A stretch of DNA of 64,000 nt, taken from positions 105,259-169,258 of the forward strand of contig NZ_JACKZA010000008.1 in assembly GCF_015100155.1 (NCBI RefSeq), read 5' to 3'. A model generated the notes under the pieces. That model saw nothing but the letters and a program-made list of their open reading frames with translations. It was not told the origin of the DNA and made no database searches. Both the position numbers and the translations under genes were made by a program. This DNA is from Acidithiobacillus sp. HP-2 (GTDB taxonomy: Bacteria > Pseudomonadota > Gammaproteobacteria > Acidithiobacillales > Acidithiobacillaceae). Shown one piece after another: positions 5,560-44,262 of this stretch. Within the stretch, counting starts at the first letter, position 1; every line of letters begins with the position of its first letter.

Positions 5560-5573
5560 AGCTAATTTGAAAA

Positions 5574-5604
5574 CCGGGGGCTGAACCGGTGATCCGGCCC
5601 CCGA
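5574..5604 (-). terminator. Terminator-like hairpin between 5614 gene and nth
   Basis: CGGGGGC (5575-5581) pairs with GCCCCCG (5597-5603), with an inner CCGG/CCGG pairing. On the minus strand it is followed by GGTTTTC, a short T-run, so it could end the gene at 5614-6030 before nth. The T-run is weak. Confidence 0.5.
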
Positions 5605-5613
5605 TTATTGGGC

Positions 5614-9418: not shown

Positions 9419-9501
9419 TACACGAGCGATTGGTTATTCAACCAGGTCCTGAAGACTGGGTTTACTTTTAAATTTTCGGTGTTATCTGTGGATGACCAAT
9501 C

Positions 9502-15981: not shown

Positions 15982-16089
15982 AGCCAGGCATGCTGATGCG
16001 CTGCTGTTATGGAGGATCATCGCCGGATCATGTTATCCTTTGGTCCGGCTAATCCATCAGCATTCAGACAGCGCAAGAGGACTTAGAGC

Positions 16090-28680: not shown

Positions 28681-28685
28681 GACTT

Positions 28686-29294
28686 TTATCCTCTTTTCCA
28701 GACGGCAAATATGCGCCAAAGGGCTTCGCCGCGCAGTGCATGATAAGTGGCCATGACGACATGGCCGATCCAGAAATAAGCTAACAGGGGGGTGCCCAGG
28801 CGCATCAGCGTGAGCCCAATTTGTGCGCCTCCGCTCAGATGCAGATCTCCGCGCAGAACGAGCCAGCCGATAAATCCCCCAAAGGTCACGATGCTGACCC
28901 CGATGAAAAAAATGGCCTGCCAGAGGCTGGATAAACCCGGTCTCACCCCATGGCTGGGGAGTTTTCCGCGAAATAACCGGGCAAGATCATGACCTACGGC
29001 TTGAGGGGTGCGCCAGGAAAACCAGGTACCCAAAAGATGACGCCCCCAGGGCGTGAATAGATATACCAGCCAGGTAAGAACCAGCCAGCCGGTCAGAATC
29101 AGCCCGGCAAGTACATGCAGCGGGAACCAGGTGAAATTGGCAAACCACAAGGCGGCCAGGCTGTTCCATAACTCAAAGGTAACACTCAGCACCAGTCCCA
29201 GATGCAAAATCTTGGCATAAACAGGATATTCCACCAGGTTTTCAGGCGTCTGAGCGGAGAATACGCTGCCGGGAATAGGAATGATCTCTGCCAT
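28686..29294 (-). CDS. Cytochrome b561-type membrane haem protein
   Basis: 202 aa from ATG 29294. Four or five membrane helices with haem-ligand histidines in AKILHLGLVL, WFPLHVLAG, and the GHVVMATYHALRG end. It fits the Ni/Fe-hydrogenase-type or b561 family that exchanges electrons between quinones and periplasmic proteins. It precedes the molybdopterin protein with a 5-base gap, so it is the probable electron partner. Confidence 0.83.
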   Translation of the reverse strand: MAEIIPIPGSVFSAQTPENLVEYPVYAKILHLGLVLSVTFELWNSLAALWFANFTWFPLHVLAGLILTGWLVLTWLVYLFTPWGRHLLGTWFSWRTPQAVGHDLARLFRGKLPSHGVRPGLSSLWQAIFFIGVSIVTFGGFIGWLVLRGDLHLSGGAQIGLTLMRLGTPLLAYFWIGHVVMATYHALRGEALWRIFAVWKRG

Positions 29295-29314
29295 GTCTTG
29301 CCTCACTTGTAGAC

Positions 29315-30925
29315 TTATTCCAGATTACGTGAAATTTCGGGTTCTGGATGCATTTTATTCACCTCGAATGCGTGACCATCTTCAAGATTTTTGCGTATCA
29401 CCTGAGCCTGGGCGCGAATCGCCGCAAGATGCTCGCCGGACATGCGTTCCAGATGCTTCCATTGCAGCGCAGTACGCGGATGCTGACGGAAACGTTCTTG
29501 GTGCGTCTGCAGGAAATCCCAGTACAGCACCGTAAAGGGGCAGGCTTTTGCGCCGCTAGCCAATTTGGGTTCATACGGACAGCGCTGACAATGCCCGCCC
29601 ATTTTCTGCAGATAATTACCGCTGGCGACATAGGGCTTGGATGCCATCCAGCCGCCATCTGCATACTGGGACATGCCGATGACATTGGGCAGCTCCACCC
29701 ACTCTACGGCATCCACGTAAATGGCCAGAAACCAGCGATGAATGGCTTGCGGCCCGACGCCCAGCAGCAATGCAAACAGACCGGTAATCATCAGTCTTTC
29801 AATATGGTGGGCATAACCATGCTCCAGAGTGCGCGCGATGGTGTCCTGCAGGCAGGACAGGTCGGTTTTTGCAGTCCAGTAGAATGCTGGCAAGGGCTGA
29901 TGGGCCTGGAGGATATTCTGCTGCAGCCATTGGGGCATGTGCAGCCAATAGAGGCCGTGTATGTATTCGCGCCAGCCCAAAATTTGTCGGATAAATCCTT
30001 CTGCAGAGGCGATGGAAACTTTACCAGCCCGGAAATTTTCTTCAACCGCCCGAATGACCGTTATGGCACGGATCAGACCGAGATTCAGTGCTGCAGACAG
30101 CCGGGAATGATAAAGCCAGACCTGCCCCGGCCAGAAAGCATCCTGCAGGGGACCAAATTGTGCAAGACGATCATCCAGAAAATCCTGAAGAGCGGTTTGG
30201 GCCTGTTGGGGAGTCACCGGCCAGTCAAAGTGTTGCAGGTTACCCGGGTGTCCGGCGAATTGTGTTTCGACCAGGGCCATGACTTCCTGCGTGATGGCAT
30301 CCGGGGTAAAACTCAAAGGTTCCGGAATCCAGCCGGGACCCTGAGAACCGGGACGCTGACGGTTTTCCTGATCAAAATTCCAGCGTCCGCCAACCGGCTG
30401 ATCTTTTTGCATGAGTATTCCGGTTTTCTGCCGGGCGTGGCGGTACCAGAATTCGAGACGCATCTGGCGACGATTGTCTGCCCACTGGCCAAATTCCGGG
30501 ACTGAAAACAGAAAATTAAGATTACGCCGTTCTTGCCAGGGAATCTGCCTGCTTTCTGCGCATTGACGAATGGTTTCGCGCAGCTGCCAGGTGCCGGGAC
30601 GCAGGCTGATGATTTGCCGGGGCCGCCAGCGTAGTAGAGCCGCTTCCAGGGCCTGACTCATGCTCTGATAGGGGTGTGTGCCAAAGGTCAGATACTCCAA
30701 AGGAAAGCGACGTTGCCGCAAGGCCGCAGCATGATGACGCATGGCGCTCAGGAACAGGACAATACGGGCCTTATGCGACCAGACTATGGTGGACTCTTCG
30801 GGCACTTCCGCCATCCAGCACAGATCCTGAACTGGATCGAAGCCTTCCAGGGCCAGGCTGTCCGGATCCAGATGGTCACCGAGAATCACTACCAGATGAC
30901 GAACAGTCCTTTCAGTCTGAGACAT
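29315..30925 (-). CDS. Fe-S cryptochrome/photolyase (PhrB-like, (6-4) photolyase family)
   Basis: 536 aa from ATG 30925. It belongs to the deoxyribodipyrimidine-photolyase-related (FeS-BCP) class: an N-terminal antenna domain begins [15 protein letters not shown], and the C-terminal FAD domain contains [15 protein letters not shown] and [13 protein letters not shown] segments. The four [4Fe-4S] cysteines are visible: one in TDLSCLQD, then [20 protein letters not shown]. It repairs UV lesions using blue light. The DUF2256 gene overlaps its start by 14 bases. Confidence 0.92.
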
Positions 30926-31079
30926 GGGGCGGGTTTCCAGGGCGATGCCGATTTTTTCGACAGGCGGCTGAACAATACCGTACTTCATCCCAACAGCGCT
31001 TCCAGCGTTTACGCCAGGTAAAGGGGCGCTGGCAGACCACACAGATTTTTTCTTCCTGATAACGTTGTAGGGCTTTCAT
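30912..31079 (-). CDS. DUF2256 small zinc-finger-like protein
   Basis: 55 aa, start ATG 31079. Four cysteines in CVVC...CSAAC spacing and the characteristic [20 protein letters not shown] block identify DUF2256. These proteins are repeatedly found next to photolyase-related genes; function unknown, possibly nucleic-acid binding. It overlaps the photolyase start by 14 bases, showing translational coupling. It is too short for a 60-residue cutoff. Confidence 0.88.
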
Positions 31080-31083
31080 GGCT

Positions 31084-31106
31084 TATACAAAATAAGAAAG
31101 TGTATA
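31084..31106. promoter_or_regulatory. Candidate LitR/CarH-type operator 1
   Basis: TATACA - 11 bases - TGTATA, perfect inverted half-sites, five bases upstream of the DUF2256 start codon. The design matches the TxTACA...TGTAxA class I recall for LitR/CarH-type MerR regulators. A site with identical 11-base spacing lies at 31309-31331. Inference from pattern. Confidence 0.55.
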
Positions 31107-31308
31107 GTACAATAAGATTAACAAGGCTTCGGCGCAATGCGCAAGGTGTCTGAACCTGCATCCGCTGACGACGTATTTGCGTAATAGCTGATAATGCCAC
31201 TTTGCCAAGGTGTTGCGATTACACTGTGGGGTGTTGAGCGTATCAGGACATTGCAGGTTATGGAACATTGGAACCGACACAGGATGTTTGGGAGACTTTG
31301 CGCTATCC

Positions 31309-31331
31309 TGTACTAAGTGAGTATTTGTACA
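31309..31331. promoter_or_regulatory. Candidate LitR/CarH-type operator 2
   Basis: TGTACT - 11 bases - TGTACA, one mismatch from the operator-1 pattern and with the same spacing. It sits 28 bases before the FAD oxidoreductase start, overlapping a TACAAT -10-like element (31328-31333), so a bound protein would block the promoter of the membrane-modification operon. Confidence 0.5.
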
Positions 31332-31359
31332 ATACATTTAAAAACAATAAAGGAGACTT

Positions 31360-32679
31360 ATGCGAGTTGCCATCATTGGTGCAGGTATTTCCGGGCTGGG
31401 GGCCGCCTGGATATTGCGGAAAACGCATAGCGTGAGTGTTTTCGAGGCGGCGGACTACCCCGGCGGTCATACCCACACCGTGGATGTCAGCCTGCAGGGC
31501 GTTTCAGCACCTGTAGATACAGGTTTTCTGGTGTTTAATGATCGAACCTACCCGAATTTGCTGGGGCTTTTCGCGGAACTGAACGTACCCTGGACCGCCA
31601 GTGACATGTCCCTCAGTGTCCGTCTTCCTGCCCTGAATCTGGAATGGTGTGGCTCCAGTCTGAGCACGCTTTTCGCCCAGAAGCGGAATGTTTTGCGCCC
31701 GGCCTTCTGGGGAATGCTCAAGGATATTCTGCGCTTCAATCGCGAAGCGTTGGCCTGGTTAAACATAAGCGATGCGGACATCACCCTGGACGAGTTTCTG
31801 CGTCGGGGAGCCTACGGGGAGTGGTTCAAGACAGCCTATCTTCTTCCCATGGCGGCAGCCATCTGGTCTTGCCCGACCGCAACCATGCTGGCTTATCCGG
31901 CGCGTTCCATTTTGCAGTTTTATCGGAATCATGGACTTTTACAGATTTTTGATCGGCCACAATGGCGGACAGTCGTCGGTGGGGGCCGTGAATATGTCCG
32001 GCGCATCACGCAACAGCTCCATGATGTCCGTCTGAATGCGCCGGTGGAAGCATTGCATCCGGCTCCGGAAGGCGGGTTTACGGTCCAGTTTGCCGGCCAT
32101 CAGAAAGAACACTTTGATCAGGTCATTTGTGCCCTGCATGGTGATCAGGCCAGAAAGTTGCTTGGTGAGCATTGGCCAGAACAAAGCGCCGCGCTGGCGC
32201 AGTGTCAATATCAGGACAATGAAGCCTATCTGCATTGGGATGAACGTTTTCTTCCCAAGCATCGCAAAGCTTGGGCTGCCTGGAATTTTCATGAAGAAGG
32301 GGTTGCCGCTGCCCGGCGTTCGGTGGCGGTTACCTATTTGATCAATCAGTTGCAACCGCTGCCCTTCAAGACGCCGGTTATGGTCACTTTGAACCCGCAG
32401 CGCGTACCGGATCCGCAAAAAACCTGGGCACAGTTTCATTATGCCCATCCGGTATTTGACCATGGGGCATTGGCTGGTCAGGAGGCCGTGCGGCGTCTGC
32501 AAGGTCGTAATGGCTTATGGTTTTGTGGTGCCTGGCTGGGTCACGGTTTTCACGAAGACGGTTTGCGCAGCGCCGTCGAAGTCGCCAATCACATGGGTAT
32601 TCGCGCTGCCTGGCAAGAGCAGGCGAGTCCCATTACTGAACCACGGATGGAAACATGGCCACAACAAGTTCTACGCTGA
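31360..32679 (+). CDS. FAD-dependent amine-oxidase-like oxidoreductase
   Basis: 439 aa. N-terminal dinucleotide-binding GAGISGLGAAW, then FEAADYPGGHTHTV, and a C-terminal FAD contact FCGAWLGHGFHEDGLRSA. It belongs to the NAD(P)/FAD-binding protein family that accompanies DUF1365 and cfa in many bacteria, probably acting on membrane lipids. First gene of a six-gene run in which every gene overlaps the next. AGGAG precedes the ATG. Confidence 0.9.
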   Translation: MRVAIIGAGISGLGAAWILRKTHSVSVFEAADYPGGHTHTVDVSLQGVSAPVDTGFLVFNDRTYPNLLGLFAELNVPWTASDMSLSVRLPALNLEWCGSSLSTLFAQKRNVLRPAFWGMLKDILRFNREALAWLNISDADITLDEFLRRGAYGEWFKTAYLLPMAAAIWSCPTATMLAYPARSILQFYRNHGLLQIFDRPQWRTVVGGGREYVRRITQQLHDVRLNAPVEALHPAPEGGFTVQFAGHQKEHFDQVICALHGDQARKLLGEHWPEQSAALAQCQYQDNEAYLHWDERFLPKHRKAWAAWNFHEEGVAAARRSVAVTYLINQLQPLPFKTPVMVTLNPQRVPDPQKTWAQFHYAHPVFDHGALAGQEAVRRLQGRNGLWFCGAWLGHGFHEDGLRSAVEVANHMGIRAAWQEQASPITEPRMETWPQQVLR

Positions 32680-33422
32680 AGGGTGGGCTTCTGCTGGGCC
32701 GCGTCATGCATCGCCGTCTGCAGCCGTTGCGACGGGCATTTCATTACCGGACCTTCAGTATTTGTTTTGATCTGGATGATTTGCCGCAGCTGCAGAAAAT
32801 TCTTTCCCGCTTCAGCCCCCTGCGTTTTCACGGTCGAGATCACGGCGGCCGTGATGGTTCGCCACTTTCAGCCTGGATTCGCGACATTTTTGCCAAACAG
32901 CAGATTGAAGCCAGCCGCTTTGTCCTGGTCACCTATCCCCGTCTTTGGGGGTATGTTTTTAATCCGGTCAGTTTCTGGCTGGGCCTGGACGAAACCGGCG
33001 GGCTGCGCGGCGTGCTGGCAGAGGTGAACAACACTTTCGGCGAGCACCACAGTTATTTGCTGGCGCATGAAGACCGGCGCGCTATCAGCAAGGGTGACTG
33101 GCTGGTTGCCAGCAAGGCTTTTCATGTATCCCCGTTTTTACCGGTAGAAGGGCAGTATCGCTTTCGCTTTCATCTTGAAGATCAAGGATTTCAGGCAGAT
33201 ATTCATTATCTGGATGCGGCTGGCGCGCCCTGTCTCATCACCCAAATTGCGGGACAGCGCCGTAATCTGAATATTTCCAGCGTCTGGCGGGCCGTTTTGC
33301 AGCAGCCTTTCATGACCTTCTCAGTCGTTCTTTTTATTCATTGGCAGGCCATCCGACTATGGCGTGCGCACATTCCTTTTCATAAAAAACCGGAGCCCCC
33401 CCAGCAGGAGATCAGTTTATGA
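32655..33422 (+). CDS. DUF1365 family protein
   Basis: 255 aa, overlapping the previous gene by 25 bases. DUF1365 hallmarks: HRRLQPLRRAFHYRTFSICFDLDDL, RLWGYVFNPVSFWLGLD, and EVNNTFGEHHSY. Proteins of this family always sit beside cfa genes and have been tied to unusual fatty-acid formation. A C-terminal hydrophobic helix suggests membrane association. Confidence 0.9.
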   Translation: MATTSSTLKGGLLLGRVMHRRLQPLRRAFHYRTFSICFDLDDLPQLQKILSRFSPLRFHGRDHGGRDGSPLSAWIRDIFAKQQIEASRFVLVTYPRLWGYVFNPVSFWLGLDETGGLRGVLAEVNNTFGEHHSYLLAHEDRRAISKGDWLVASKAFHVSPFLPVEGQYRFRFHLEDQGFQADIHYLDAAGAPCLITQIAGQRRNLNISSVWRAVLQQPFMTFSVVLFIHWQAIRLWRAHIPFHKKPEPPQQEISL

Positions 33423-34636
33423 GTACAGCGCTTGGTAACCAACGAATTCCTATGCCAGGACTTCCCCGCTCTGCACAAAGCTTGCTGCAGATGCTGGAAG
33501 GCATGCATTGCGGACAATTGACGCTGAAAACCCCGGAAGGGGATATTTTGCAGTTTCAGGGGGCAGAATCGGGTATTCACGCCGAGTGGGTGGTGAATGA
33601 CTGGCGGATTTTGTCGCTGCTGGCGCGGGACGGTGATATTGCTTTCGGGCGCGGTTACATGGAAGGCTTGTGGGAGAGCAGTGATCCGGTGGCATTGCTG
33701 CGTCTGGCTATTGCCAATCGTGGCATGGTCGAAAAATATATCGAGGGTTCATGGTTCCGGCGCTTGATATTCACCCTGCTGAACCGACTGTTGCGCGCCA
33801 ATACCCGGCGCGGTAGCCGCAAGAATATTTCTTTTCATTACGATCTGGGTAATGAATTTTACCAGCTCTGGCTGGATTCGAGTATGACGTATTCCTGTGC
33901 CTTATATGATGGTGACGATTCCCTGACGCTGACTGACGCCCAGGAAAGAAAATATGCACGGGCGCTCAGTGCCCTGAACTTGGCCCCTGGATCAAGACTT
34001 TTGGAAATAGGCTGTGGGTGGGGTGGATTTGCCGAATATGCAGCGCGCCGTGGTTTTTTTGTGCATGGCATTACTCTGTCAAAAGAGCAGTTGGCTTATG
34101 CGAAAGAGCGTCTCGAAAAGCAGGGACTCAGTCATTTAACGGAATTTTCCCTGATGGATTATCGGGATTTACAGGGACATTATGATGGAATTGTCTCCAT
34201 CGAAATGCTCGAAGCGGTGGGCGCTGAATGGTGGTCCAGCTATTTTCAGCAAATTCATCAGCTGCTGCGCAGAGGCGGACGGGCGCTGATCCAGAGTATT
34301 ACCATCGCCGATGCGCGTTTTTCGGCCTATCAGAAAAGTTCTGATTTTATCCGCCATTATGTGTTTCCAGGCGGGATGCTCCCTTCTCCGGCCCGGCTGC
34401 AGGAAGAAATATCCACCGCCGGTTTGCAATTGCTCGAACGCAAAGATTTTGGTCAGGACTACGCCAGGACTTTGCGCATTTGGCGTCAGCGATTTGATAT
34501 TCAGGAAGAAGCCGTTAAAAGCCTCGGTTATGACTCGGTGTTCTGCAAAATGTGGCGCTTTTATCTGGTTTATTGTGAAGCCGGTTTTGCGGAAGGAGAA
34601 ATTGATCTGACCCAGGTGACCCTGACGCATGGCTAA
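33419..34636 (+). CDS. cfa: Cyclopropane-fatty-acyl-phospholipid synthase
   Basis: 405 aa, start overlaps the DUF1365 stop (ATGA). Methylates the double bond of membrane lipid acyl chains with S-adenosylmethionine. SAM-binding EIGCGWGGFAEYAA lies near residue 198; the bicarbonate/active-site region includes YDLGNEFYQLWLD and MTYSCALY. It stiffens membranes, protecting against acid and singlet oxygen. It may instead form a related lipid modification, given its DUF1365/FAD partners. Confidence 0.94.
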   Translation: MSTALGNQRIPMPGLPRSAQSLLQMLEGMHCGQLTLKTPEGDILQFQGAESGIHAEWVVNDWRILSLLARDGDIAFGRGYMEGLWESSDPVALLRLAIANRGMVEKYIEGSWFRRLIFTLLNRLLRANTRRGSRKNISFHYDLGNEFYQLWLDSSMTYSCALYDGDDSLTLTDAQERKYARALSALNLAPGSRLLEIGCGWGGFAEYAARRGFFVHGITLSKEQLAYAKERLEKQGLSHLTEFSLMDYRDLQGHYDGIVSIEMLEAVGAEWWSSYFQQIHQLLRRGGRALIQSITIADARFSAYQKSSDFIRHYVFPGGMLPSPARLQEEISTAGLQLLERKDFGQDYARTLRIWRQRFDIQEEAVKSLGYDSVFCKMWRFYLVYCEAGFAEGEIDLTQVTLTHG

Positions 34637-35165
34637 GTTACTGACTATTTTCTGTTTGCTTTTAATGAGCCCGTTCGCCTGGTCCGCAGCACCCAAGGTG
34701 CCATTGCCGGCAGCGGTAAAAACGGCGGCTCCAGATTTGCATTTGCTGGGTGCGGGGCATCTGAACTGGCTGTTTTTCAGTGTTTATAACGCTGCGTTGT
34801 GGATCAGCGGTGATCAGTACACACCCACCCGGACTTTTGCCTTGGGCATTGACTATGAGCGCAGTTTCAGCAGTCACGAGCTGGTCAAGACTTCGCTCAA
34901 GGAAATGCGGCGACTGGATGATTTGGATGCCGCCCAGTTGGCAAAATATCGGACTGACCTCCAGCATGCATTCCCGGATGTGAAACCCGGTGATCAGATT
35001 GTCGGCTTGTGTATGCCCGGGAAATACACGGCTTTTTATTATAATGGTGTGCTTCATAGCAAAATTGATGACCCGCAATTCTGTCCGGAATTTTTTGCCA
35101 TCTGGTTGAGTCCCCATACCCAGGTACCGGGTTTGCGCAACAAGCTTTTGGACCTGCATGAATAA
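34629..35165 (+). CDS. Exported chalcone-isomerase-like protein
   Basis: 178 aa with a signal peptide ending near WSAAP. It has the chalcone-isomerase-like fold segments (GHLNWLFFSVYNAALW, SFSSHELVKTSLKEMRRL, VVGLCMPGK region). Bacterial members are not flavonoid enzymes and are thought to bind fatty acids or lipids. It overlaps cfa by 8 bases and the MFS gene by 8, so it is part of the lipid operon. Confidence 0.8.
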   Translation: MAKLLTIFCLLLMSPFAWSAAPKVPLPAAVKTAAPDLHLLGAGHLNWLFFSVYNAALWISGDQYTPTRTFALGIDYERSFSSHELVKTSLKEMRRLDDLDAAQLAKYRTDLQHAFPDVKPGDQIVGLCMPGKYTAFYYNGVLHSKIDDPQFCPEFFAIWLSPHTQVPGLRNKLLDLHE

Positions 35166-36444
35166 GCAGGACAGGCCCTCCCTGAAAATGCTCCTGCTTT
35201 ACGCTCCGCTGGGAATGCCTCTGGCATTTGGTGCCTTGCCTGTATATCTGTTAATTCCCCATTTATATGCCACGGATTTCGGGATGTCCCTGAGTTTTCT
35301 GGGGGTGATTTTGTTGGCAGTCCGCTTGCTGGATGCCGTGCAGGATCCCTTGATCGGGCTTTGGAGTGATCGCTGGGCAGAACAGCACCGGGGGCGGCGT
35401 CTGCTGATTCTTCTGGGTATTCCCGGAATGATTCTGGGTTTTTATCTGCTGTTCAATCCGCTGGCAAGCATGATCTGGTTGAGTCTGAGCTTGTCTCTCA
35501 TTATTTTTTATGTATTTTTTAGTATCAGTAGTGTCAATTATCAGGCCTTGGGTGCAGAACTCTCTCATGACTACAATGGCCGGACCTGGCTGACGACCAG
35601 CCGTGAGGCCGGTGCATTAATCGGGGTGTTACTTGCAGCCGCATTACCCGACTTGTTGATGAAGCATTTTGGGCGTCATTATGGTCTGGAAATTTTTGCG
35701 GGTATATTTGCGGTGTTGCTCATTCTGGCCGTAATGCCTTTGCAAAGGCGCAGTATGCAGCGCCCGGTGGTCGGCGAGAAAACGCCGTGGTGGACATTTT
35801 TTTCCGCGTTGCGACGTAAGTCATTACGGCACTTGCTGATTATTTATACCTTGTCGCAGTCTGCCAATGCAGTAGCTGGAACCCTGTTTTTCTTTTTTGT
35901 GGATGAAATTCTTGGTGCGCATCAATTGGCCCCCTTATTTTTACTGGCCTACTTTCTATCGGGCGCATTGGGAATGCCTTTATGGCTGTGGTTATCCAGT
36001 CATTTCAGTAAAAGTCTGGCCTGGCGCCTTTCCATGTTCATTGCCACCCTGGCATTTTTCTGCGCCTTTTTTCTACGCAACGGTGATCTCTGGGCCTATG
36101 CGCTGATTTGCGTGTTTACCGGTTTGACCCTCGGGGCAGATCAGGCCCTGCCGCCCAGTCTTCTGGCAGACCACAGTGATCAGGACAGTCGCAGTCGACC
36201 GGGAAATTATTTCGGGTTGTTGAATTGGGTGGGTAAAGCCGCTACGGCCTTGGGCGCCGGTTTGATATTGCCACTTTTGCAGGCTCTCGGTTATTCCTCA
36301 GGGAAAGATCTTTGGGCTTTGTCTTTTTGTTATGCCGTGATTCCGGCGCTGACCAAAATTATCGCCATTATTTTGATGGGCTACTGGTCGGTAGAAGGTC
36401 GGGAGTTACGTTTTTCTGGTTCCATATCTGGGAGGGCATCATGA
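35158..36444 (+). CDS. MFS/GPH-type membrane carrier
   Basis: 428 aa, 12 membrane helices. Motif LLDAVQDPLIGLWSDRW near residue 58 is the glycoside-pentoside-hexuronide carrier signature (sodium- or proton-coupled). In this lipid cluster it may move lipids or small solutes, as suggested for homologues in similar clusters; substrate unknown. Its last codons overlap the DUF3833 start. Confidence 0.85.
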   Translation: MNKQDRPSLKMLLLYAPLGMPLAFGALPVYLLIPHLYATDFGMSLSFLGVILLAVRLLDAVQDPLIGLWSDRWAEQHRGRRLLILLGIPGMILGFYLLFNPLASMIWLSLSLSLIIFYVFFSISSVNYQALGAELSHDYNGRTWLTTSREAGALIGVLLAAALPDLLMKHFGRHYGLEIFAGIFAVLLILAVMPLQRRSMQRPVVGEKTPWWTFFSALRRKSLRHLLIIYTLSQSANAVAGTLFFFFVDEILGAHQLAPLFLLAYFLSGALGMPLWLWLSSHFSKSLAWRLSMFIATLAFFCAFFLRNGDLWAYALICVFTGLTLGADQALPPSLLADHSDQDSRSRPGNYFGLLNWVGKAATALGAGLILPLLQALGYSSGKDLWALSFCYAVIPALTKIIAIILMGYWSVEGRELRFSGSISGRAS

Positions 36445-37031
36445 ATACAGTACATAAAGTTTTGGGTTTGTCTTTGGTGATGGCGCTGGCTGGTTGTGCC
36501 ACTCAGCCGCAGGAATACGCACAAAGCCATCCTAAATTTGATTTGAAGACGTTTTTTAATGGCCCCTTGATGGCCCAGGGTGTTTTTGAAAATCGCTCAG
36601 GTAAGGTCGTCAATCGTTTTGTGGTGCGCATGATGGGCACCTGGCAGGAGAACAAGGGAACTCTGGTGGAAAACTTCACCTATTTTGATGCTGCCGGTAA
36701 AAAGACCTATCAACAGCGGGTCTGGCATCTTACTGAAACCAGTGCACATCACTTTGTTGGCAGTGCTGAAGGTTCGGCCGGTGATGTGAAAAAGGCTTCG
36801 GGTGATGCCTTCGGATTTGCCCTGCACTGGTCCTACGATGTGCGTCAGCCGGTTGGTAAAAGCTTTTACAATCTGCACGCCAATGACTGGATGTATATGA
36901 TCACCCCCGATACGGTCATGGATCACACCGACGTCACCTGGTATGGATTACATGCCGGCAACATCTTTTTGGAGATGCATAAGTTACCGGATACGGCGGC
37001 TAATCGGGAAAAAGTCGCCGCAATTAAATAG
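36441..37031 (+). CDS. DUF3833 lipoprotein, copy 1
   Basis: 196 aa; ATGA overlap with the MFS gene, GGAGG upstream. A lipobox (ALAGC) makes it an outer-membrane-type lipoprotein. DUF3833 features: FFNGPLMAQGVFENRSGKVVNRF, GSAEGSAGDVKK, and YDVRQPVGKSFYNLHANDWMY. It is a close paralogue of the cytoplasmic-looking copy at 42941-43495. Last gene of the operon; function unknown, tied to lipid clusters. Confidence 0.88.
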   Translation: MNTVHKVLGLSLVMALAGCATQPQEYAQSHPKFDLKTFFNGPLMAQGVFENRSGKVVNRFVVRMMGTWQENKGTLVENFTYFDAAGKKTYQQRVWHLTETSAHHFVGSAEGSAGDVKKASGDAFGFALHWSYDVRQPVGKSFYNLHANDWMYMITPDTVMDHTDVTWYGLHAGNIFLEMHKLPDTAANREKVAAIK

Positions 37032-37033
37032 TT

Positions 37034-38410
37034 TTATTCATCAACCAGTTCAAGCAGTTGCTGCAATTTCTGGGGTTTGAAGCGGGCCCATAGCAAACCC
37101 CAGATCAATATCAATAGCACGAGTAGCACAAACAGCACCGTGGCAGCGCCTTCTCCGCCTGCAGGTAGGGGCCATAAACTGACTTCCAGCACTTTGAGCA
37201 GCAGCGGCAGGGAAATGACGGCAACGACCAGGCTGAACCCGCGCCAGACATGTTTTTGTCGAAATAAATACAGAGGCGTAGCAATATTGGCGAGGCTGTA
37301 AATCAGCAAAAAAGCCAGTCCGGTAAATGTGCCAAAAGTCCCGACCACGGACAAAATGGAAAAATCGCTCACGCTCACCCCCACTATACTGAACAGAACC
37401 AGCATAGCGAGGAGACCCAGGGCGCGGGTAGGGGTACCATATGAGGGGTGCCGGAAATGCAAATACTGACTGATGACTTGATGACCCGCCATGCTGAATA
37501 AAATGCGGGAAATACTGTTCAGGGTGGCGATGGTCGCTGAAAAAGCAGCAGTAGCCATGGCCAGATCCGAAAAAATGCCCAGCCAGGGCCTGCCAATAGC
37601 CTCGGCAATCCGGTTGAGAGGAGCAGGGCTGTTGCCAATGGCGGTGGGGATGTGGGCAAAGGCCAGAATTTCAATATAGGCCATAGCCACAAAAAACAAG
37701 CCGACCATACCCACGGAAAAGAGCATGACCTTGGGAATCGCCGTGCGCGCAGCCCGGGTTTCCCCGGCAAGGTTTCCGGCTGTTTCAAAACCGCCGTAAG
37801 CCAACAGCGACAATATTAATGCCTGGGTAAACGGGCCTTGCTGCAGTTGCATAAAATGCCATTGAGCCGGATCCCGCCAGCCAAAATGTCCCAGTGTAAA
37901 TGCGGCAATCAGCACAATGCAGGCAATGGAAAAAATCTCAACCCAAAGTCCCCAGCGGGCGGAAATTTCAATGCCGCGCCGCGCCAGTCGCCAGGCAATC
38001 AGCAGGTACACAAAAGCAATAAGCGCAATCCAGCCGATGCCATGAATGGGCCAGAAAAAGGCCAGGGCCTGCTCCAGAAACAGGCCTCCCAACAGGGGCG
38101 CAGCTGCCAGGGCACCAAAATATCCGGCAATCATGACAAAGCCCGCCAGCATCCCGGCTATGGGGTGCAAGGCGCTGCTCAGATAAAAAAACAAGGAGCC
38201 CGGAGAAGGGAAATGCCGTGCCAAAATGCCAATTTGCAGGGCGACCAGCATCATCAGCATGCCTATGACGCTATAGGCCAGCCAGGTAAAATTGCCACTG
38301 TGCACCGCCACCAGGGAAATGGTAACGGCGGGCATTGCCGAGGGGGTAATGTTGGCGACCGCATGGCCCCAAATTTCACTGGGGCTGACGGACTTGGAGC
38401 TGGAGTGCAT
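37034..38410 (-). CDS. APC-superfamily permease
   Basis: 458 aa with 12 predicted helices. Motifs of the amino acid/polyamine/organocation superfamily: SPGSLFFYLSSALHPIAGML near residue 70 and LSLLAYGGFETAGNLAGETR near residue 205. It follows the CoA-ligase gene by 74 bases on the same strand and may be the last gene of the PYP operon. It could import an aromatic precursor or amino acid, but this is guesswork. Convergent with DUF3833 copy 1. Confidence 0.85.
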   Translation of the reverse strand: MHSSSKSVSPSEIWGHAVANITPSAMPAVTISLVAVHSGNFTWLAYSVIGMLMMLVALQIGILARHFPSPGSLFFYLSSALHPIAGMLAGFVMIAGYFGALAAAPLLGGLFLEQALAFFWPIHGIGWIALIAFVYLLIAWRLARRGIEISARWGLWVEIFSIACIVLIAAFTLGHFGWRDPAQWHFMQLQQGPFTQALILSLLAYGGFETAGNLAGETRAARTAIPKVMLFSVGMVGLFFVAMAYIEILAFAHIPTAIGNSPAPLNRIAEAIGRPWLGIFSDLAMATAAFSATIATLNSISRILFSMAGHQVISQYLHFRHPSYGTPTRALGLLAMLVLFSIVGVSVSDFSILSVVGTFGTFTGLAFLLIYSLANIATPLYLFRQKHVWRGFSLVVAVISLPLLLKVLEVSLWPLPAGGEGAATVLFVLLVLLILIWGLLWARFKPQKLQQLLELVDE

Positions 38411-38484
38411 AAATCGGGATACTCATTGATTCTGACTGTAGTGAAAAATTATAAGGGGATGGCCCTATGAAAGCGATGAGAGCG

Positions 38485-39801
38485 TTAGTCCGGCCAGTGT
38501 GAATACAGCCAGCGCCGACTGGGCTTGCCCTGCGGCACTGGCGCATCGTCCCAGAACCGTGCCGCTGGAATGCACAGCAGATAGGGCTCTTGCCATTGTT
38601 TGCGCAATGTAGAGACCTGCTCGCCGGGTACTTTTGCAACGGCGGTCAGGTGCCGTGCTCCTGGCGCGCCAAGGATAATGCTTTCGGCCTCTGGATACTG
38701 GTCCGTCAACCGGGCTTCCTCCGCTTCAGGACGGATGCTGTGGCCATTTGCCAGACTGAATCCCCCATCTTCACGGCCGCGCCAAAACAAGCAGCCGTCA
38801 GGATCCTGGCTGACTTCATCGCCACTGTTGGTCCAGCTCTGATCATCCTGAATGCTTTGCCAACCCGACGCGGACAGGCGGGCATCGGCTTGCCCGGGTG
38901 AATGATAATGGAGGGTTTCGCCACGCAACGCATATTCCACCAGGGAATGTCCCAGGATAAATGGCTGAAACTCTCCGGGAGGTCCCAGCGTGATTCCCGG
39001 CCCGGCCTCGCTTTGTCCATAACCCACCCGCAGCGCAGTGCCCTGGAGTTGATTGGCAAGGACTTTACCAATGGGGGCTCCGCCAATGATGCCACCCTGT
39101 AAGCTATGCAAGAATTTTGGGGTAAGCAGGCGTGCCATACGCGGAACCGTCAAGAGATGGGTGCAGTCCCGGGGTGGATGGCGGGCGCGCTGTGCTTCTG
39201 CCTGAATAACGCTACCTGCCATGCAGGCGGGCAGTAATTCCAGCACACCTGCAAAGGCATGGGCCCAGGGCAGGGTGTTCCAGAGCAGACTATCGGCGCT
39301 GAGTTGCAGTGCCGGTAAATGGGTAGCAACCTGCCAATCCAACGCTGCAAAGCTGAGTCGGTAAGCATTTCCGGCTCCCATACTGCCCGAGCTCCACAAA
39401 ATCAGGGCCGCATCCTGATCGTCATGGATGCCACCTTCCTGGACTTCTTCCTGAACACGATCTGATGGATAATGTATCCACAGTGCGGGCTGGAGCAGTT
39501 TCAGGCGGCGCTGGATTTCCAGAGGATGCAGGGTGGGTAGTGGACAGAATATCCAGTCTCCCATCCAGCAGGCCAGCATATAGGCCAAATAAGCGGGACT
39601 GTTGGGCAGGCTGACTGCAATTCTGCTTCCGGGGATGATTTTGGCACGACGCCAGCGGGTTTTGATACGGGCGGCTCTGGCCCAGAGCGACTGTCCCGGC
39701 CAGGCATGGGTATTACCATTCTGGTGCCAATCCAGCGCAAAACCCTGATGCAGCCCCTCTGCCAGTTGTTGCAGAAATTCATGGCGACCCGACAAGTTCA
39801 T
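38485..39801 (-). CDS. AMP-forming acid:CoA ligase, probable 4-coumarate:CoA ligase for PYP
   Basis: 438 aa, short for the adenylate-forming family (usually above 500). The core motifs are WSSGSMGAGNAYRLS near residue 135 (phosphate loop), VGYGQSEAGPG near residue 263, TNSGDEVSQDPDG and the C-terminal QGKPSRRWLY, whose Lys is the adenylation residue. Short 4-coumarate:CoA ligases are known to sit beside pyp and activate p-coumarate for attachment to its Cys. Its place in the same operon, with an ATGA overlap to the small gene after pyp, supports that role. A generic fatty-acid ligase is the alternative. Confidence 0.75.
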   Translation of the reverse strand: MNLSGRHEFLQQLAEGLHQGFALDWHQNGNTHAWPGQSLWARAARIKTRWRRAKIIPGSRIAVSLPNSPAYLAYMLACWMGDWIFCPLPTLHPLEIQRRLKLLQPALWIHYPSDRVQEEVQEGGIHDDQDAALILWSSGSMGAGNAYRLSFAALDWQVATHLPALQLSADSLLWNTLPWAHAFAGVLELLPACMAGSVIQAEAQRARHPPRDCTHLLTVPRMARLLTPKFLHSLQGGIIGGAPIGKVLANQLQGTALRVGYGQSEAGPGITLGPPGEFQPFILGHSLVEYALRGETLHYHSPGQADARLSASGWQSIQDDQSWTNSGDEVSQDPDGCLFWRGREDGGFSLANGHSIRPEAEEARLTDQYPEAESIILGAPGARHLTAVAKVPGEQVSTLRKQWQEPYLLCIPAARFWDDAPVPQGKPSRRWLYSHWPD

Positions 39802-40112
39802 GACACCAGATCCATATTCATTTGCCTTAACAACAAGTGCAGCTGGTTACGAAAATCTTCGGGAATGTCATTTTCAATGTGCTGGATTTCCCGGTCAACC
39901 ATTTGCAAAAGCTCAATTTGCTGTTCGCTCAGGAAATTACCACCATCCTGCTGAAAGGCGTTGTTCAGCATTTGCCACAGGCTGTTCAGGCAGACGAGGT
40001 AAAGTTGCCGTTGTTCCTGATGTATTTCGGGCAGATCTGTCAGTGCTTGCAGCAGTTCATCGGCATACGCCAGAAACTGGTTAATGACCTGGTTTTCCGC
40101 AGGAACCTGCAT
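39798..40112 (-). CDS. Unknown helical protein between pyp and the CoA ligase
   Basis: 104 aa, no family recognised. Highly helical and acidic, with heptad-like Leu/Gln patterning (SEQQIELLQMVDREIQHIEN, HLLLRQMNMDLVS), no signal or membrane segment. Translation starts on the last base of pyp (TGATG) and ends overlapping the ligase start. The strict coupling suggests a protein working with PYP, perhaps a partner that receives the light signal or aids chromophore loading. This is inference. Confidence 0.7.
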   Translation of the reverse strand: MQVPAENQVINQFLAYADELLQALTDLPEIHQEQRQLYLVCLNSLWQMLNNAFQQDGGNFLSEQQIELLQMVDREIQHIENDIPEDFRNQLHLLLRQMNMDLVS

Positions 40113-40516
40113 CAGCCCAGATCCTCATATAACTGAATAATACGATCAATAAAAATAAAAAAAAGCGGACTTTTACGCCTATCGAAAAACATGTGCACAT
40201 GGGCAGAGATAGGGCGGATACGATAGGTGAACGTATAATAAAAATGCGTGTCCAGAGACCCCTCCTGGATACCCTGACGGAATCGTCCACGAAACAGGCG
40301 GCTGGCCGTGCAGGGTGCTACTTCCGTGAAAAAATTACGCCCCAGAACTTCGTCCGCAGACAAACCACTGAGTCGCGCCTCTGCTGCGTTAAAAATTTTT
40401 ACCTGAGCGTGACTGTCCAGAGCAATGATGCCAAAACTCTGCCGGTCAGCCATTTGCGCATTGATCTGGTCGGGGTTATTCAGGATGGCATCTGCAACAA
40501 AAGTGTGGGCTAACAT
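40112..40516 (-). CDS. pyp: Photoactive yellow protein (PYP) homologue, blue-light PAS sensor
   Basis: 134 aa. It aligns along its length with the Halorhodospira halophila protein: NAAE at 43-46, NFFTEVAPCT at 61-70, and TFTYRIRP. Chromophore residues fall on the same numbers: Cys69 (thioester attachment) and Glu46 (hydrogen bond to the phenolate) are kept; Tyr42 is Phe, Thr50 is Ser, and Arg52 is Leu. So p-coumarate can attach, but the phenolate network is altered, which should shift the colour and slow or speed recovery. AGGA precedes the ATG. First gene of an operon with a CoA ligase. Confidence 0.92.
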   Translation of the reverse strand: MLAHTFVADAILNNPDQINAQMADRQSFGIIALDSHAQVKIFNAAEARLSGLSADEVLGRNFFTEVAPCTASRLFRGRFRQGIQEGSLDTHFYYTFTYRIRPISAHVHMFFDRRKSPLFFIFIDRIIQLYEDLG

Positions 40517-40650
40517 TCACGTTCCTTGGACAAAGATACAATAACAGGCAGAACAGCTTCAGTGTCACGACCCTGTCTAGTAGCGGAGTTGCTGCCAGAA
40601 GCCCTTTAGTTCATAGGTTTTCATGATTATTTATGGGGCGATACATCCTG

Positions 40651-40674
40651 TAAACATGTGCAGAAACCTGTATA
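40651..40674. promoter_or_regulatory. Candidate LitR/CarH-type operator 3, pyp/regulator control region
   Basis: TAAACA - 12 bases - TGTATA, one mismatch from the operator pattern. A further TATACA half-site lies at 40726-40731, 14 bases before the regulator start. Both lie in the 229-base region from which pyp and the MerR gene diverge, so the regulator may control itself and pyp. Confidence 0.4.
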
Positions 40675-40745
40675 ACAATGATAGAGTAGATTACTGTTCA
40701 GGGTCCATATGTCAATAAGGCGTCATATACAAAAAGGGAACGGTT

Positions 40746-41657
40746 GTGGATATCAGCACGGATGAAACAGAAGTACCGCAATTTCCAATCAGTGTGGTTG
40801 AGCAGGAAACCGGTATTTCCAAAGAGTTACTGCGCATGTGGGAACGGCGATACGCCTTTCCGGTGCCGGGTCGGGATGCGGCAGGTAACCGTCTGTACAG
40901 TCGCGCGCAGATTGAGCAGTTGCACCGGATTAATCAATTACTGGCAGCAGGGTATCGGCCGGGTGCCGTGGTGGGTGCCGATGCGCAGAAAATCGACAAC
41001 CTGGTGGCTGAAATTCCTGCGCAGCACTCTGCACCCCACGAAGATCCTGCAGTGCTGGCAGAAGCTCTCAATATGCTGGCCTCCGATCGTCCAGAGCTAT
41101 TGCGTAGTTATATGCGCCGCCAGCTGCAGCAGGAAGGACTCCCCCGCTTTGTGCTGCAGGTAGCCGCGCCTTTGCTGCAGCGCGTCGCCCGCGCCCGGAT
41201 GATGGGCGAAATAAAGCCTTATCGGGAGGGCTGCCTTCAGGAACTGCTGATGGAATGTCTCTACGTCGCGACCAGTCAGTTGCCGGGTGGCGAAACCCGC
41301 CTGCGGGTTTTGCTGGCGAGTTTTCCGGGAGAGGGCCGTACGCTGGAATTGCAGATGACCCGCGCCCTGCTGATGGGTGAGGGCGTGGATGTTTTGTTCA
41401 TTGGTTCGGAGCCTGAAGTGGATGATTTGATTGCGGCGGCAGAAGCCTGTCATGTGCAGGTGATTCATCTGGCAGTATCGGCGGCTTCAGTCAATGTGCA
41501 GAATCGCCAGCTATTACATGATCTGCAACGGCGCATGCCTGCGGGAGTTAGCTTATGGTTGGGGGGTAGTGGTTGCCAGGAGCTGGGAGCTGCAAAGGAT
41601 GAATCCTGTTTTGTGCGTTTGCAGGATATGTTGAGAGCCATTCGCGAATGGGTTTGA
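40746..41657 (+). CDS. MerR/CarH-LitR-like regulator lacking cobalamin ligands (class II type)
   Basis: 303 aa, GTG start. N-terminal MerR winged helix (TGISKELLRMWERRYAFPVPGRD, then GNRLYSRAQIEQL), a helical linker (about 100-175), and a C-terminal Rossmann-like B12-binding fold (about 180-303). The Wx9EH motif of light-sensing CarH reads RMMGEIKPYREG, losing Trp and His, and the ExHxxG cobalamin motif reads EGRTLE, losing the axial His. It should thus not bind B12 and need another light sensor; pyp is divergent and 229 bases away. Confidence 0.85.
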   Translation: MDISTDETEVPQFPISVVEQETGISKELLRMWERRYAFPVPGRDAAGNRLYSRAQIEQLHRINQLLAAGYRPGAVVGADAQKIDNLVAEIPAQHSAPHEDPAVLAEALNMLASDRPELLRSYMRRQLQQEGLPRFVLQVAAPLLQRVARARMMGEIKPYREGCLQELLMECLYVATSQLPGGETRLRVLLASFPGEGRTLELQMTRALLMGEGVDVLFIGSEPEVDDLIAAAEACHVQVIHLAVSAASVNVQNRQLLHDLQRRMPAGVSLWLGGSGCQELGAAKDESCFVRLQDMLRAIREWV

Positions 41658-41757: not shown

Positions 41758-42813
41758 ATGGCAAACACCGATTCAGTGCTGGTAGTAGGAGCGGGTCCCG
41801 CAGGTCTTTCAGCAGCAGCCACCATTGCCTCCATGGGCAAAAATGCCGTCATCGTCGAGAAAGAAGATGTGCTGGGTGGCGCCCCCATCATTTCAGGGTA
41901 TGCGCGTCTGGTCCCCTCGGGTGAATGGGCCAAGGACGCCATCGGTCGCATGGTAAGCAGGGTCACCGGCAATAAAAATGTGGCGATTCATACTTCAGCC
42001 AAAGTAACCCGGTTTGAAGGTGAAGCAGGCTATTTTACGGCGACTTTGAGTTCCGGTGAGAAAGTAGATGCGGGTGCGGTGGTTCTGGCCACCGGATTTA
42101 CGCATTTTGACTCCATCAATAAACCCGAATGGGGGTTCGGCACCTATGAAGATGTGCTGACCACCACCCAGATGGAACAGATGGTCGCAACCGGACAAAT
42201 TCGTTGTCCCTCGGATGGAAGAGTCCCGGAGCGGGTCGCGATATTGTTGTGTGTAGGTTCTCGCGACCGCCAGATCGGCAGAGAGTGGTGTTCCAAGATC
42301 TGCTGCACAGTTTCGACTAATCTGGCTATGGAAATCAAGGAGATGTCACCGACCACCGATGTGTTCATCTATTACATGGACATTCGTACCTTCGGTCTTT
42401 ACGAAGACAGGTTCTACTGGAAAAGCCAGGAAGAATTCAAAACCAAGTTCGTCAAGGCTCGTATTGCCGAAGTAACGAAATCTCCGGATGGACGCTTACT
42501 GGTCAAAGGCGAAGATACCCTGGTTAAACGTCCTATCGTTATTCCCATGGACATGGTAGTGCACGCTATTGGCATGGATCCTAATGCACTGAATCCTGAA
42601 ATTGCCAAAGTGTTTGGTATCGGTCTTGAGAAGCACGGCTTTATTGATCGCGCCGAGCAATATACCAACACGCAAGGAACAACCCGCAGGGGCATTTATG
42701 TTTGTGGCGCAGCTACAGGTCCTGAAACCATTGATGATTCGATGGCACAAGGCCAGTCTGCGGGTGCCCGGGCGGTGGCTGACCTGTATCAATTGCTGGC
42801 GGCCTCTGCCTGA
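41758..42813 (+). CDS. HdrA-like flavoprotein of the sulfur-oxidising sHdr type
   Basis: 351 aa from ATG 41758. FAD-binding VGAGPAGLSAAATIASMG and EDVLGGAP at the N-terminus, and LLCVGSRDRQIG followed by EWCSKICCT near residue 180, as in the sHdrA subunit. sHdr complexes oxidise sulfane sulfur in sulfur oxidisers, with FAD and an Fe-S cluster in this subunit. Here it stands alone with its own strong promoter and terminator, not beside hdrB/C, so it may be a paralogue or a lone flavoprotein. Confidence 0.82.
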   Translation: MANTDSVLVVGAGPAGLSAAATIASMGKNAVIVEKEDVLGGAPIISGYARLVPSGEWAKDAIGRMVSRVTGNKNVAIHTSAKVTRFEGEAGYFTATLSSGEKVDAGAVVLATGFTHFDSINKPEWGFGTYEDVLTTTQMEQMVATGQIRCPSDGRVPERVAILLCVGSRDRQIGREWCSKICCTVSTNLAMEIKEMSPTTDVFIYYMDIRTFGLYEDRFYWKSQEEFKTKFVKARIAEVTKSPDGRLLVKGEDTLVKRPIVIPMDMVVHAIGMDPNALNPEIAKVFGIGLEKHGFIDRAEQYTNTQGTTRRGIYVCGAATGPETIDDSMAQGQSAGARAVADLYQLLAASA

Positions 42814-42940: not shown

Positions 42941-43495
42941 ATGAAACTATACGAATCATCACTTCCGGTATTTCATATCAATCAATTTTTCAATGGTCCT
43001 GCGGTGGCTACGGGAGTTTTTCAGGACCGATCAGGTAAGGTGGTCAATCGCTTTATCATGTATTTATTGGGGACGTGGCAGACAGATTCTGTCGGTTCCC
43101 TGAGCGAAAAATTTCTGTTTCTGGATAATGACGGTAAGGCCAGTTACGCTGAGCGTTTGTGGCAATTACAGGTGACTGGTGCCCATAAATTTACCGCAAC
43201 TGCACAAGGTTCAGCAGGAGATATTGTGGGGCTTGCTCAGGGAGAAGCCGAAGGGTTTGCCATGCGCTGGCGGTATACGGTAAGACAACCGGTGGGTAAA
43301 CGGTTTTTCAATTTGCGTGTGGATGACTGGATGTATCTGATTGATAAAGATCATGTCATTAATCGGAGTAAAATGCGTTTTTTAGGCTTTTTTGTGGGTG
43401 ACGTGAGTATTGAAATCCATCGCTTGGCAGATACGCCAGAAAATCGGAAAGCCATGCTGCAGTTACCGCGTGTGGACGATACGGTGCCCGTATGA
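42941..43495 (+). CDS. DUF3833 protein, copy 2
   Basis: 184 aa. Contains the same blocks as copy 1 (FFNGPAVATGVFQDRSGKVVNRF, AQGSAGDIVGL, RQPVGKRFFNLRVDDWMY), but no signal peptide or lipobox, so it should stay in the cytosol. A TGTATA half-site lies at 42891-42896 in its promoter region. The next gene, an SDR, overlaps its stop (ATGA), as in lipid/light clusters of other bacteria. Confidence 0.87.
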   Translation: MKLYESSLPVFHINQFFNGPAVATGVFQDRSGKVVNRFIMYLLGTWQTDSVGSLSEKFLFLDNDGKASYAERLWQLQVTGAHKFTATAQGSAGDIVGLAQGEAEGFAMRWRYTVRQPVGKRFFNLRVDDWMYLIDKDHVINRSKMRFLGFFVGDVSIEIHRLADTPENRKAMLQLPRVDDTVPV

Positions 43496-44262
43496 GCGAT
43501 AAGTCCTGTTGGCAGGGTAAACGTTGCTGGTTGATCGGGGCCAGTACGGGAATCGGTGCTGCCTGTGCCGAAGCGCTGAATGCCCAAGGTGCCCGGCTTG
43601 CGCTGACGGCGCGCAATCCAGCCAAGCTTGCGGACTTGGCCGCCAAACTGGGTAACGATTACACCCTGGTTTGCCCCGCCGATGTGATGACTCCGGATGA
43701 ACTACACAAAGCCTATACAGATATTCGCGAACAGTGGGGCGGTCTGGATGTGCTGCTGTTTCTTGCCGGCACCTATCAGGCCGCGCGGAGCTGGGAACTC
43801 AATCCGGACCAGGCCCGTCAGGCCATCAGCACCAATTATCTGGGCGCGGTAGATGCGGTTCATACGGTCCTTGCCGATTGGCTCGTGGCCGGACAGGGGC
43901 AGATCGTCCTGACCTCCAGCGTTGCTGGTCTGCGTGGTTTGCCCCAGTCATTATATTACGGACCCAGCAAGGCGGCACTGACCCATTTCGCCGAAGTCCT
44001 GCATCTGGATCTGGAACCCAAGGGGATCAAGGTTCAGGTCATTCATCCCGGTTTTGTTGCAACGCCCCTGACCGCGCACAACGACTTTCCCATGCCCAAT
44101 TTAATCAGCCCCGAACAGGCAGCCACGGAAATTCTGGCGGGTATGGAAAGCAGCGCGTTTGAAATTCACTTTCCCCGCGCCTTTACCCGCAAGCTCAAAT
44201 TTCTGCGCTGCCTGCCCTATCGCTGGTATTTTTCGTTGATTCATCGTTCTACGGGGCTGTAG
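43492..44262 (+). CDS. Short-chain dehydrogenase/reductase
   Basis: 256 aa. NAD(P)-binding GASTGIGAACAEAL near residue 17, catalytic Ser in LTSSVAGLRG, and YxxxK as YYGPSKAAL near residue 160. Classical SDR acting on unknown alcohols or ketones, possibly lipid-linked given its DUF3833 partner. The C-terminal LPYRWYFSLIHRSTGL is basic and hydrophobic, suggesting contact with the membrane. Confidence 0.9.
   Translation: MSDKSCWQGKRCWLIGASTGIGAACAEALNAQGARLALTARNPAKLADLAAKLGNDYTLVCPADVMTPDELHKAYTDIREQWGGLDVLLFLAGTYQAARSWELNPDQARQAISTNYLGAVDAVHTVLADWLVAGQGQIVLTSSVAGLRGLPQSLYYGPSKAALTHFAEVLHLDLEPKGIKVQVIHPGFVATPLTAHNDFPMPNLISPEQAATEILAGMESSAFEIHFPRAFTRKLKFLRCLPYRWYFSLIHRSTGL

Follow-up and report, generated by a model that had tools for sequence, protein, structure and literature searches.

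Genes of the pyp-litR locus

The DNA analyzed here, referred to as the window, is a stretch of 64,000 nt from Acidithiobacillus sp. HP-2 (family Acidithiobacillaceae), whose genome comprises 3.2 Mb. It contains pyp, the gene of a single-domain photoactive yellow protein (PYP), and, diverging from it, litR, the gene of a LitR/CarH-type regulator of the MerR class without the residues that bind cobalamin (B12). The original prediction, made from the sequence alone, had placed a permease, a ligase, the small protein p104, PYP and the MerR/LitR regulator at this locus, and all five genes were borne out in place:

40112..40516, minus strand: pyp, single-domain PYP of 134 aa (PDB and TIGR02373 matches, pocket residues)
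39798..40112, minus strand: p104, orphan 104-aa protein whose start overlaps the pyp stop (open reading frame (ORF); no family over cut-off)
38485..39801, minus strand: AMP-forming acyl/aryl-CoA ligase (PF00501, E 4.5e-19)
37034..38410, minus strand: APC-family permease (PF00324, E 1e-20)
40746..41657, plus strand: litR, LitR/CarH-type MerR regulator without cobalamin ligands (MerR_1, E 2e-12; CarH match, E 6e-15)
40517..40745, no strand: pyp/litR divergent promoter region, 229 bp (gap between the divergent genes)

The divergence of pyp (minus strand) from litR (plus strand) across the 229-bp gap agrees with the original prediction. The leftward operon is tightly coupled, with an overlap of 1 base between pyp and p104 and of 4 bases between p104 and the ligase gene. 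The claim of an operon of overlapping genes thus holds for these three genes, but not for the permease gene, which follows the ligase gene after a gap of 74 bp. The permease is found at 6/6 loci of the window's own genus and at 0/7 of the other loci compared below.

The best PDB matches of the window PYP are PYPs (E 5e-23). Its score against the NCBIfam model TIGR02373 (97.5 bits, E 6e-28) lies below the curated cut-off of 143 bits, as does that of the PYP at locus L041 (84.8 bits). Since this model was built on only four seed sequences (PMC9664959), the assignment as a divergent PYP rests on residues and best PDB matches and not on TIGR02373. Cys69, the site of the chromophore thioester, and Glu46 are kept in all 13 orthologues and are invariant over the 29 rows of the alignment. 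The pocket residues Ile31, Glu46, Phe62, Val66-Cys69 and Phe96 are likewise kept in 13/13, and positions 42, 50 and 52 are always Phe, Ser and Leu; the two characterized PYPs with Ser50 are blue-shifted (PMC12826048). The 13 proteins also share a C-terminal tail ending in L(Y/F)EDL(G/A), found in none of the 17 more distant PYP matches of the alignment (P0013-P0029). From its conservation, this tail is a candidate docking element.

The window LitR matches CarH of Thermus thermophilus (E 6e-15) and the MerR_1 family (E 2e-12). Its structural model consists of a MerR helix-turn-helix domain, a four-helix bundle and a B12-type Rossmann domain (predicted at residues ~187-300), so that the helix bundle and Rossmann domain of CarH both appear to be kept. 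The Pfam B12-binding match (E 7e-7) is below the Pfam cut-off, and the score against the NCBIfam CarH equivalog NF052513 (82.1 bits) does not reach the cut-off of 400; therefore, we do not call the protein a CarH equivalog. The loss of cobalamin ligands claimed in the original prediction was confirmed by comparison with T. thermophilus CarH, a class I protein. In CarH numbering the window protein carries W131R, H142G and H177R, these three of the cobalamin contacts are changed in 13/13 orthologues, with Arg at 177 in every one, and E141 is kept in 8/13.

Linkage, ancestry of the regulator and operator-like motifs

To place the locus, 57 genomes of relatives were compared, 29 of them from Acidithiobacillaceae. 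Thirteen of the 29 family genomes have PYP, and exactly these also have a close LitR. By genus, the PYP-positive genomes number 6/17 (g1), 0/2 (g2), 2/2 (g3) and 5/8 (g4). At all 13 loci pyp and litR are adjacent and divergent and a ligase gene follows pyp. If shared ancestry is ignored, the odds of such a coincidence are 1/C(29,13) = 1.5e-8. Some PYP-negative family genomes are partly incomplete (G007, 85%; G015, 81%; G020, 71%; G028, 61%). Outside the family, weak PYP matches (G030 and G052; long open frames, E ~1e-4) and weak LitR matches (six genomes; E 3e-15 or worse) were not counted as PYPs or close LitRs. The pairing of PYP with a B12-blind LitR is therefore not peculiar to one strain, but conserved over 13 genomes and three genera.

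A survey of GTDB contigs covered 80 of 139 PYP loci. Nine of the 80 belong to Acidithiobacillaceae, and 9/9 have a LitR; of the 71 others, many on contigs with less than 10 kb a side, one (L104) has a LitR-like ORF, ~9 kb away. The co-occurrence anticipated by the original prediction thus stands within the family, but as a general rule for PYPs we rejected it. One contig (L049, DZDI01000132.1), titled as a metagenome-assembled genome of Phycisphaera mikurensis, carries an Acidithiobacillus pyp-litR locus with a PYP 96% identical; it is very likely misbinned and was counted as Acidithiobacillaceae.

In a phylogenetic tree of LitR proteins, calculated without the duplicate T. thermophilus row L179 and with no Pseudomonas class II sequence among its rows, the 13 PYP-paired regulators group with 14 relatives at a support of 100/99. 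All 14 relatives keep the cobalamin ligands. Since T. thermophilus CarH also has them, we infer that the ligands were lost in the PYP-paired proteins and not gained in the others. Six of the 14 adjoin the same light cluster, described below, and no PYP was found beside those six. In Azoarcus sp. KH32C, a 738-kb plasmid carries a ufa-type cluster next to a LitR whose B12 ligands are all present (L174, 2210-9921). This cluster is a good outgroup for the proposed change of light sensor.

The original prediction had taken PYP as a stand-in for the LOV photoreceptor of a class II LitR. Of the two B12 domains, class II proteins retain the four-helix bundle alone (PMC9758184), whereas a Rossmann domain is predicted in the window protein. 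This CarH-like fold, together with the position in the tree (which holds no class II sequence), disfavors the view that the regulator is simply a Pseudomonas class II LitR. A swap of B12 for PYP is most likely the better reading. As separate observations, the tree contains a further clade of 10 ligand-less LitR-like rows (L182, L189, L190, L195, L196, L199, L203, L204, L207 and L209), for which the stretches examined gave no LOV core motif, and on a Comamonas endophytica plasmid (L178) a BLUF gene (5360-5758) lies 3.2 kb from a ligand-bearing LitR (8959-9900), perhaps another light-sensor neighbor of the group to which this LitR belongs.

The pyp-litR locus is flanked on both sides by genes of a light cluster:

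29315..31042, minus strand: deoxyribodipyrimidine photolyase-related protein (DPRP-type) (PF04244, E 7e-67)
31043..31359, no strand: photolyase-related/FAD oxidoreductase divergent promoter (operator-like sites)
31360..32679, plus strand: FAD-dependent amine-oxidase-like enzyme (FAD oxidoreductase) of a ufa-type light cluster (family match)
32655..33422, plus strand: DUF1365 protein (E 1e-71)
33419..34636, plus strand: cyclopropane-synthase-type methyltransferase, UfaM-like by position (PF02353, E 7e-87)
34629..35165, plus strand: chalcone-isomerase-like protein (PF16036, E 5e-15)
35158..36444, plus strand: MFS_2 transporter (E 4e-55)
36432..37031, plus strand: DUF3833 protein (DUF3833a; E 2e-49)
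41758..42813, plus strand: HdrA-like FAD protein, directly after litR (NCBIfam HdrA2, E 8e-68, below the HdrA2 cut-off)
42941..43495, plus strand: second DUF3833 protein (DUF3833b; E 5e-43)
43492..44262, plus strand: short-chain dehydrogenase (SDR) of the light cluster (PF00106, E 7e-43)

The cluster is largely syntenic, as the order from the FAD oxidoreductase to DUF3833a and that of DUF3833b and the SDR are kept, with extra genes inserted in g4. The photolyase-related gene adjoins the FAD oxidoreductase at 5/6 loci whose sequence reaches that far (the exception is L043). Among 19 family genomes searched, the FAD oxidoreductase is present in exactly the 7 that are PYP-positive, although the G016 copy is divided between two contigs, with an internal stop in one piece. 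This distribution suggests that the pair and its putative targets were gained or lost together. The set from the FAD oxidoreductase to the SDR also has a counterpart beside the Azoarcus LitR.

The gap between the photolyase-related and FAD oxidoreductase genes contains TATACA-N11-TGTATA at 31084 and TGTACT-N11-TGTACA at 31309, as well as TTGTAYTATAC-type sites at 31102 and 31325. These sites resemble the published PplR1/PmlR2 site, T(G/A)TACA-N12-TGTA(C/T)A (PMC9758184). In the window, TRTAYA-N11-TRTAYA (at most one mismatch) occurs only twice, both times in this gap, and the N12 form has its single occurrence between pyp and litR (TAAACA-N12-TGTATA at 40651); spacings of 9, 10 and 13 gave no match. 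The pyp/litR gap also holds a partly conserved box, CGTC..TATACAAA, before litR. The strict Pseudomonas operator (N12, no mismatch) was discarded as a search pattern, as its sole occurrence in the genome is at a repetitive place that the window does not include. Over the 237 kb of the 13 loci, TTGTAYTATAC (at most one mismatch) has 28 matches, of which 20 are concentrated in light-gene promoter gaps that make up 2.6% of the bases; 60 shuffled motifs gave a mean of 0.5 and a maximum of 9. Six of the other eight matches lie inside the pyp coding sequence.

The ligase and the supply of chromophore

The order of the operon recalls the pyp-pCL-TAL operon of Halomonas (contig L062) and Halorhodospira halophila (PMC12826048), in which the gene next to pyp likewise encodes an AMP-forming ligase, the p-coumarate:CoA ligase (pCL), near whose position the ligase gene is found here. 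The present operon differs in that p104 lies between the two genes, no tyrosine ammonia-lyase (TAL) was found, and the ligase is of another kind. TIGR02372, the model for PYP-type pCL, scores 330.6 bits with the PYP-linked ligase of Halomonas and 226 bits with that of a spirochaete, whereas three ligase orthologues of the family gave no match at E<=0.001, and for the window ligase TIGR02372 is not among the best 25 of 28 models listed. BLASTP detected no real similarity between the window and Halomonas ligases (E 0.097). We therefore rejected the view that the operon ligase is the usual pCL. Its nearest solved relative is a feruloyl-CoA synthetase (E 2e-12).

Genome-wide searches with TIGR02372 gave only sub-cut-off matches in 13/13 PYP-positive genomes, and likewise in 12/14 control genomes. 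The best of these are frames of 461-477 aa in G004, G010 and G026 (109-120 bits), which are possible ligases. A TAL-type lyase (PF00221) was absent from 22 family genomes, including all 13 with PYP, while 5/14 control genomes were positive. A TAL-type motif was found near pyp at 19/71 non-family loci and at 0/9 family loci, among the 80 loci surveyed. TAL is present in just 5% of pyp operons and pCL in 32%, and it has been considered that p-coumarate may be taken up (PMC12826048), so the lack of a neighboring TAL is not in itself unusual. The notable point is the genome-wide lack of both a TAL-type lyase and a pCL over the cut-off, with a different ligase in place. The chromophore supply therefore seems to differ from the textbook route.

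In the two other genera (L041-L047), an SDR of ~240-300 aa takes the place of the permease after the ligase gene; at L044 it is some distance from the ligase gene, and at L042 it was seen only as a weak tblastn match. The identification comes from a Pfam run on the L047 copy. The catalytic tyrosine of the usual SDR motif, YxxxK, seems to be missing from these proteins. It may be speculated that they have a part in making an aryl acid.

A predicted blue-light switch

We consider it reasonably probable that the locus is a blue-light switch, in which a CarH/LitR-type repressor has come to sense light through PYP instead of B12. In darkness, the photolyase/FAD oxidoreductase, pyp/litR and hdrA-like genes would be repressed by LitR bound to operators before them. 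Illumination with blue light would isomerize the chromophore of PYP, and PYP in its lit state, on its own or together with the co-translated p104, would bind to LitR and release it from the DNA, by analogy with the PmSB-LOV/PmlR2 system. The photolyase and the ufa-type genes for photoprotective lipids would then be expressed. PYP probably carries as its chromophore an aryl acid, which the non-canonical ligase of the operon itself would activate.

The closest known system is that of Pseudomonas mendocina, where the short LOV protein PmSB-LOV, when lit with blue light, binds the class II LitR repressor PmlR2 and abolishes its DNA binding (PMC9758184). As here, a B12-independent repressor of the LitR family is found near a separate single-domain blue-light receptor of PAS type, and the TGTA(C/T)A half-sites are similar. 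The light genes are also alike, since the light-inducible pmlR1 region of Pseudomonas holds phrB, an SDR, an FAD oxidoreductase and ufaM (PMC9758184). The two systems differ in the sensor (PYP with a thioester on Cys69 against LOV with FMN), in the half-site spacing (N11 in the photolyase/FAD oxidoreductase gap against N12), in the orphan p104 and the ligase added here, and in the regulator, which in our model keeps a CarH-like Rossmann domain and which groups with ligand-bearing LitRs. BluF/BluR of Escherichia coli offers a further likeness, in that a MerR-type regulator is acted on by a separate protein that perceives blue light (PMC9758184), as proposed here; the photoreceptor is different.

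Regulation of a LitR by a photoreceptor is thus already known in the case of LOV, and PYP in that role would be the new part. PYPs of clade A often adjoin "transcriptional regulators"; the same 2022 paper calls the signal output of single-domain PYPs unknown, while citing reports of binding to neighboring signaling proteins (PMC9664959), and a paper of December 2025 regards PYP signal output as an important gap (PMC12826048). The main texts of both contain no mention of MerR, LitR or Acidithiobacillus. In literature listings and these two papers we did not find PYP described as the sensor of a LitR; Data Set S3 of PMC9664959 may already list Acidithiobacillus neighbors.

Several points weigh against the proposed switch. 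Co-occurrence of PYP and LitR is not phylogenetically independent, and may reflect one gain followed by losses of the whole cluster. The LitR tree comes with a warning of long branches and does not resolve the base of the 27-row group, so that the 13 could form a sister group of the 14 and not be nested among them. The N11 form is not enriched genome-wide (33 matches, against 50 for a reversed control, in the window's own genome), and the case for an operator thus rests on local conservation of the shorter motif. TTGTAYTATAC was chosen after the promoters had been inspected; as these promoters are also orthologous, its concentration is support and not proof. In the window, outside pyp, it is confined to the photolyase/FAD oxidoreductase gap, and elsewhere it occurs in the pyp/litR gap at only 4 loci (L044-L047) and in the litR/hdrA gap at 6/13 (L039, L041, L042, L043, L045 and L046). 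With no TAL-type lyase in 22 genomes and no pCL over the cut-off in 13, holo-PYP is not assured. The Phe42 seen here is natural in 8.9% of 984 PYPs and perturbs H. halophila PYP when introduced by mutation (PMC12826048). Finally, one genome keeps PYP and LitR with p104 deleted.

Linkage alone does not prove signaling, and PYP could be a co-regulated passenger with an output of its own, LitR then sensing the redox state or singlet oxygen, or being derepressed through another photoreceptor. Elsewhere, PYPs have links to kinases, chemoreceptors and GGDEF/EAL proteins (PMC12826048), and the cluster itself holds a photolyase-related protein. We regard this as quite unlikely, given the 13/13 adjacency and the contrast between the PYP-paired rows, which have lost B12 ligands, and their tree neighbors, which retain them in 14/14. 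BLUF and LOV also appear scarce: BLUF was found in 0/13 PYP-positive genomes, and a DNA-level search for the LOV core motif, which would miss diverged LOVs and leaves phytochromes and rhodopsins outside its range, matched in 2/13. One of these two matches reads Ser for Arg, and the true one is a 967-aa frame in G021. In the class as a whole, 17/369 genomes have the LOV motif, and no LitR lies within ~1.3-1.5 kb a side of these loci, nor in four wider stretches; LOV loci were accordingly dropped as a route to class II LitRs. That LitR still senses light or redox by itself, its Rossmann pocket holding a different ligand such as heme, is very improbable. Heme is a ligand of the SCHIC domain of AppA.

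The proposed switch also leaves room for p104. No family model of Pfam or NCBIfam is matched over a cut-off, and Foldseek found no PDB match at E<=0.001 for the AlphaFold2 model, in which four helices are predicted (pLDDT 78). The core LW..NNA.Q.DG..FL is conserved. All organism-named relatives are from Acidithiobacillus, none being found under another organism's name. In a stricter, rather unlikely version, whose odds overlap those of the switch as proposed, p104 is the true transducer, passing the signal from lit PYP to LitR. Its predicted helical fold, its translational coupling to pyp (a TGATG overlap), its lack of named relatives outside Acidithiobacillus and its presence in intact form at 12/13 loci are consistent with such a role. 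However, p104 varies more from genus to genus than PYP does (26-38% against 57-65% identity), and it could equally be a helper in chromophore loading. Moreover, in G003 (L037) an in-frame internal deletion reduces p104 to a 22-codon remnant, while pyp (2200-2601), the ligase gene (819-2132) and litR are intact. This genome is a natural test of the role of p104.

A more elaborate form of the switch, which we put forward tentatively and at less than an even chance, is a photoreceptor transplant. An ancestral B12-reading CarH-type repressor would have become blind to cobalamin and been rewired to PYP as an obligate light-dependent anti-repressor. The aryl chromophore would be obtained without TAL or a known pCL, a recruited ligase would load it, and p104 would serve as an adaptor for loading or docking.

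If correct, the switch would give PYP, whose partners are mostly unknown, a signaling partner. The locus offers a conserved and genetically isolated candidate for this partner, a DNA-binding regulator with target promoters nearby, so that the output of PYP could be followed through transcription. It is also a comparison case for a transcription factor that retains its regulon but switches to another light sensor, and for a PYP whose chromophore seems not to arise through the textbook enzymes. For optogenetics, a compact pair of PYP and repressor that functions in an acidophile would be a useful component.

Further observations concern the light cluster. Extra light-type genes have been inserted at other loci: L044 carries a DNA photolyase and a TspO/MBR protein (3675-5690; Pfam), and L045 a photolyase-like ORF recognized by eye (14671-16209). 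In the window, a molybdopterin oxidoreductase and a small protein without a Pfam match (28033-29306) come directly after the photolyase-related gene. By position this pair is presumably MsrPQ-like, and it may be a member of the light/oxidative-stress set. The HdrA-like gene follows litR at 13/13 pyp loci (cut by contig ends at two) and may connect light with sulfur metabolism.

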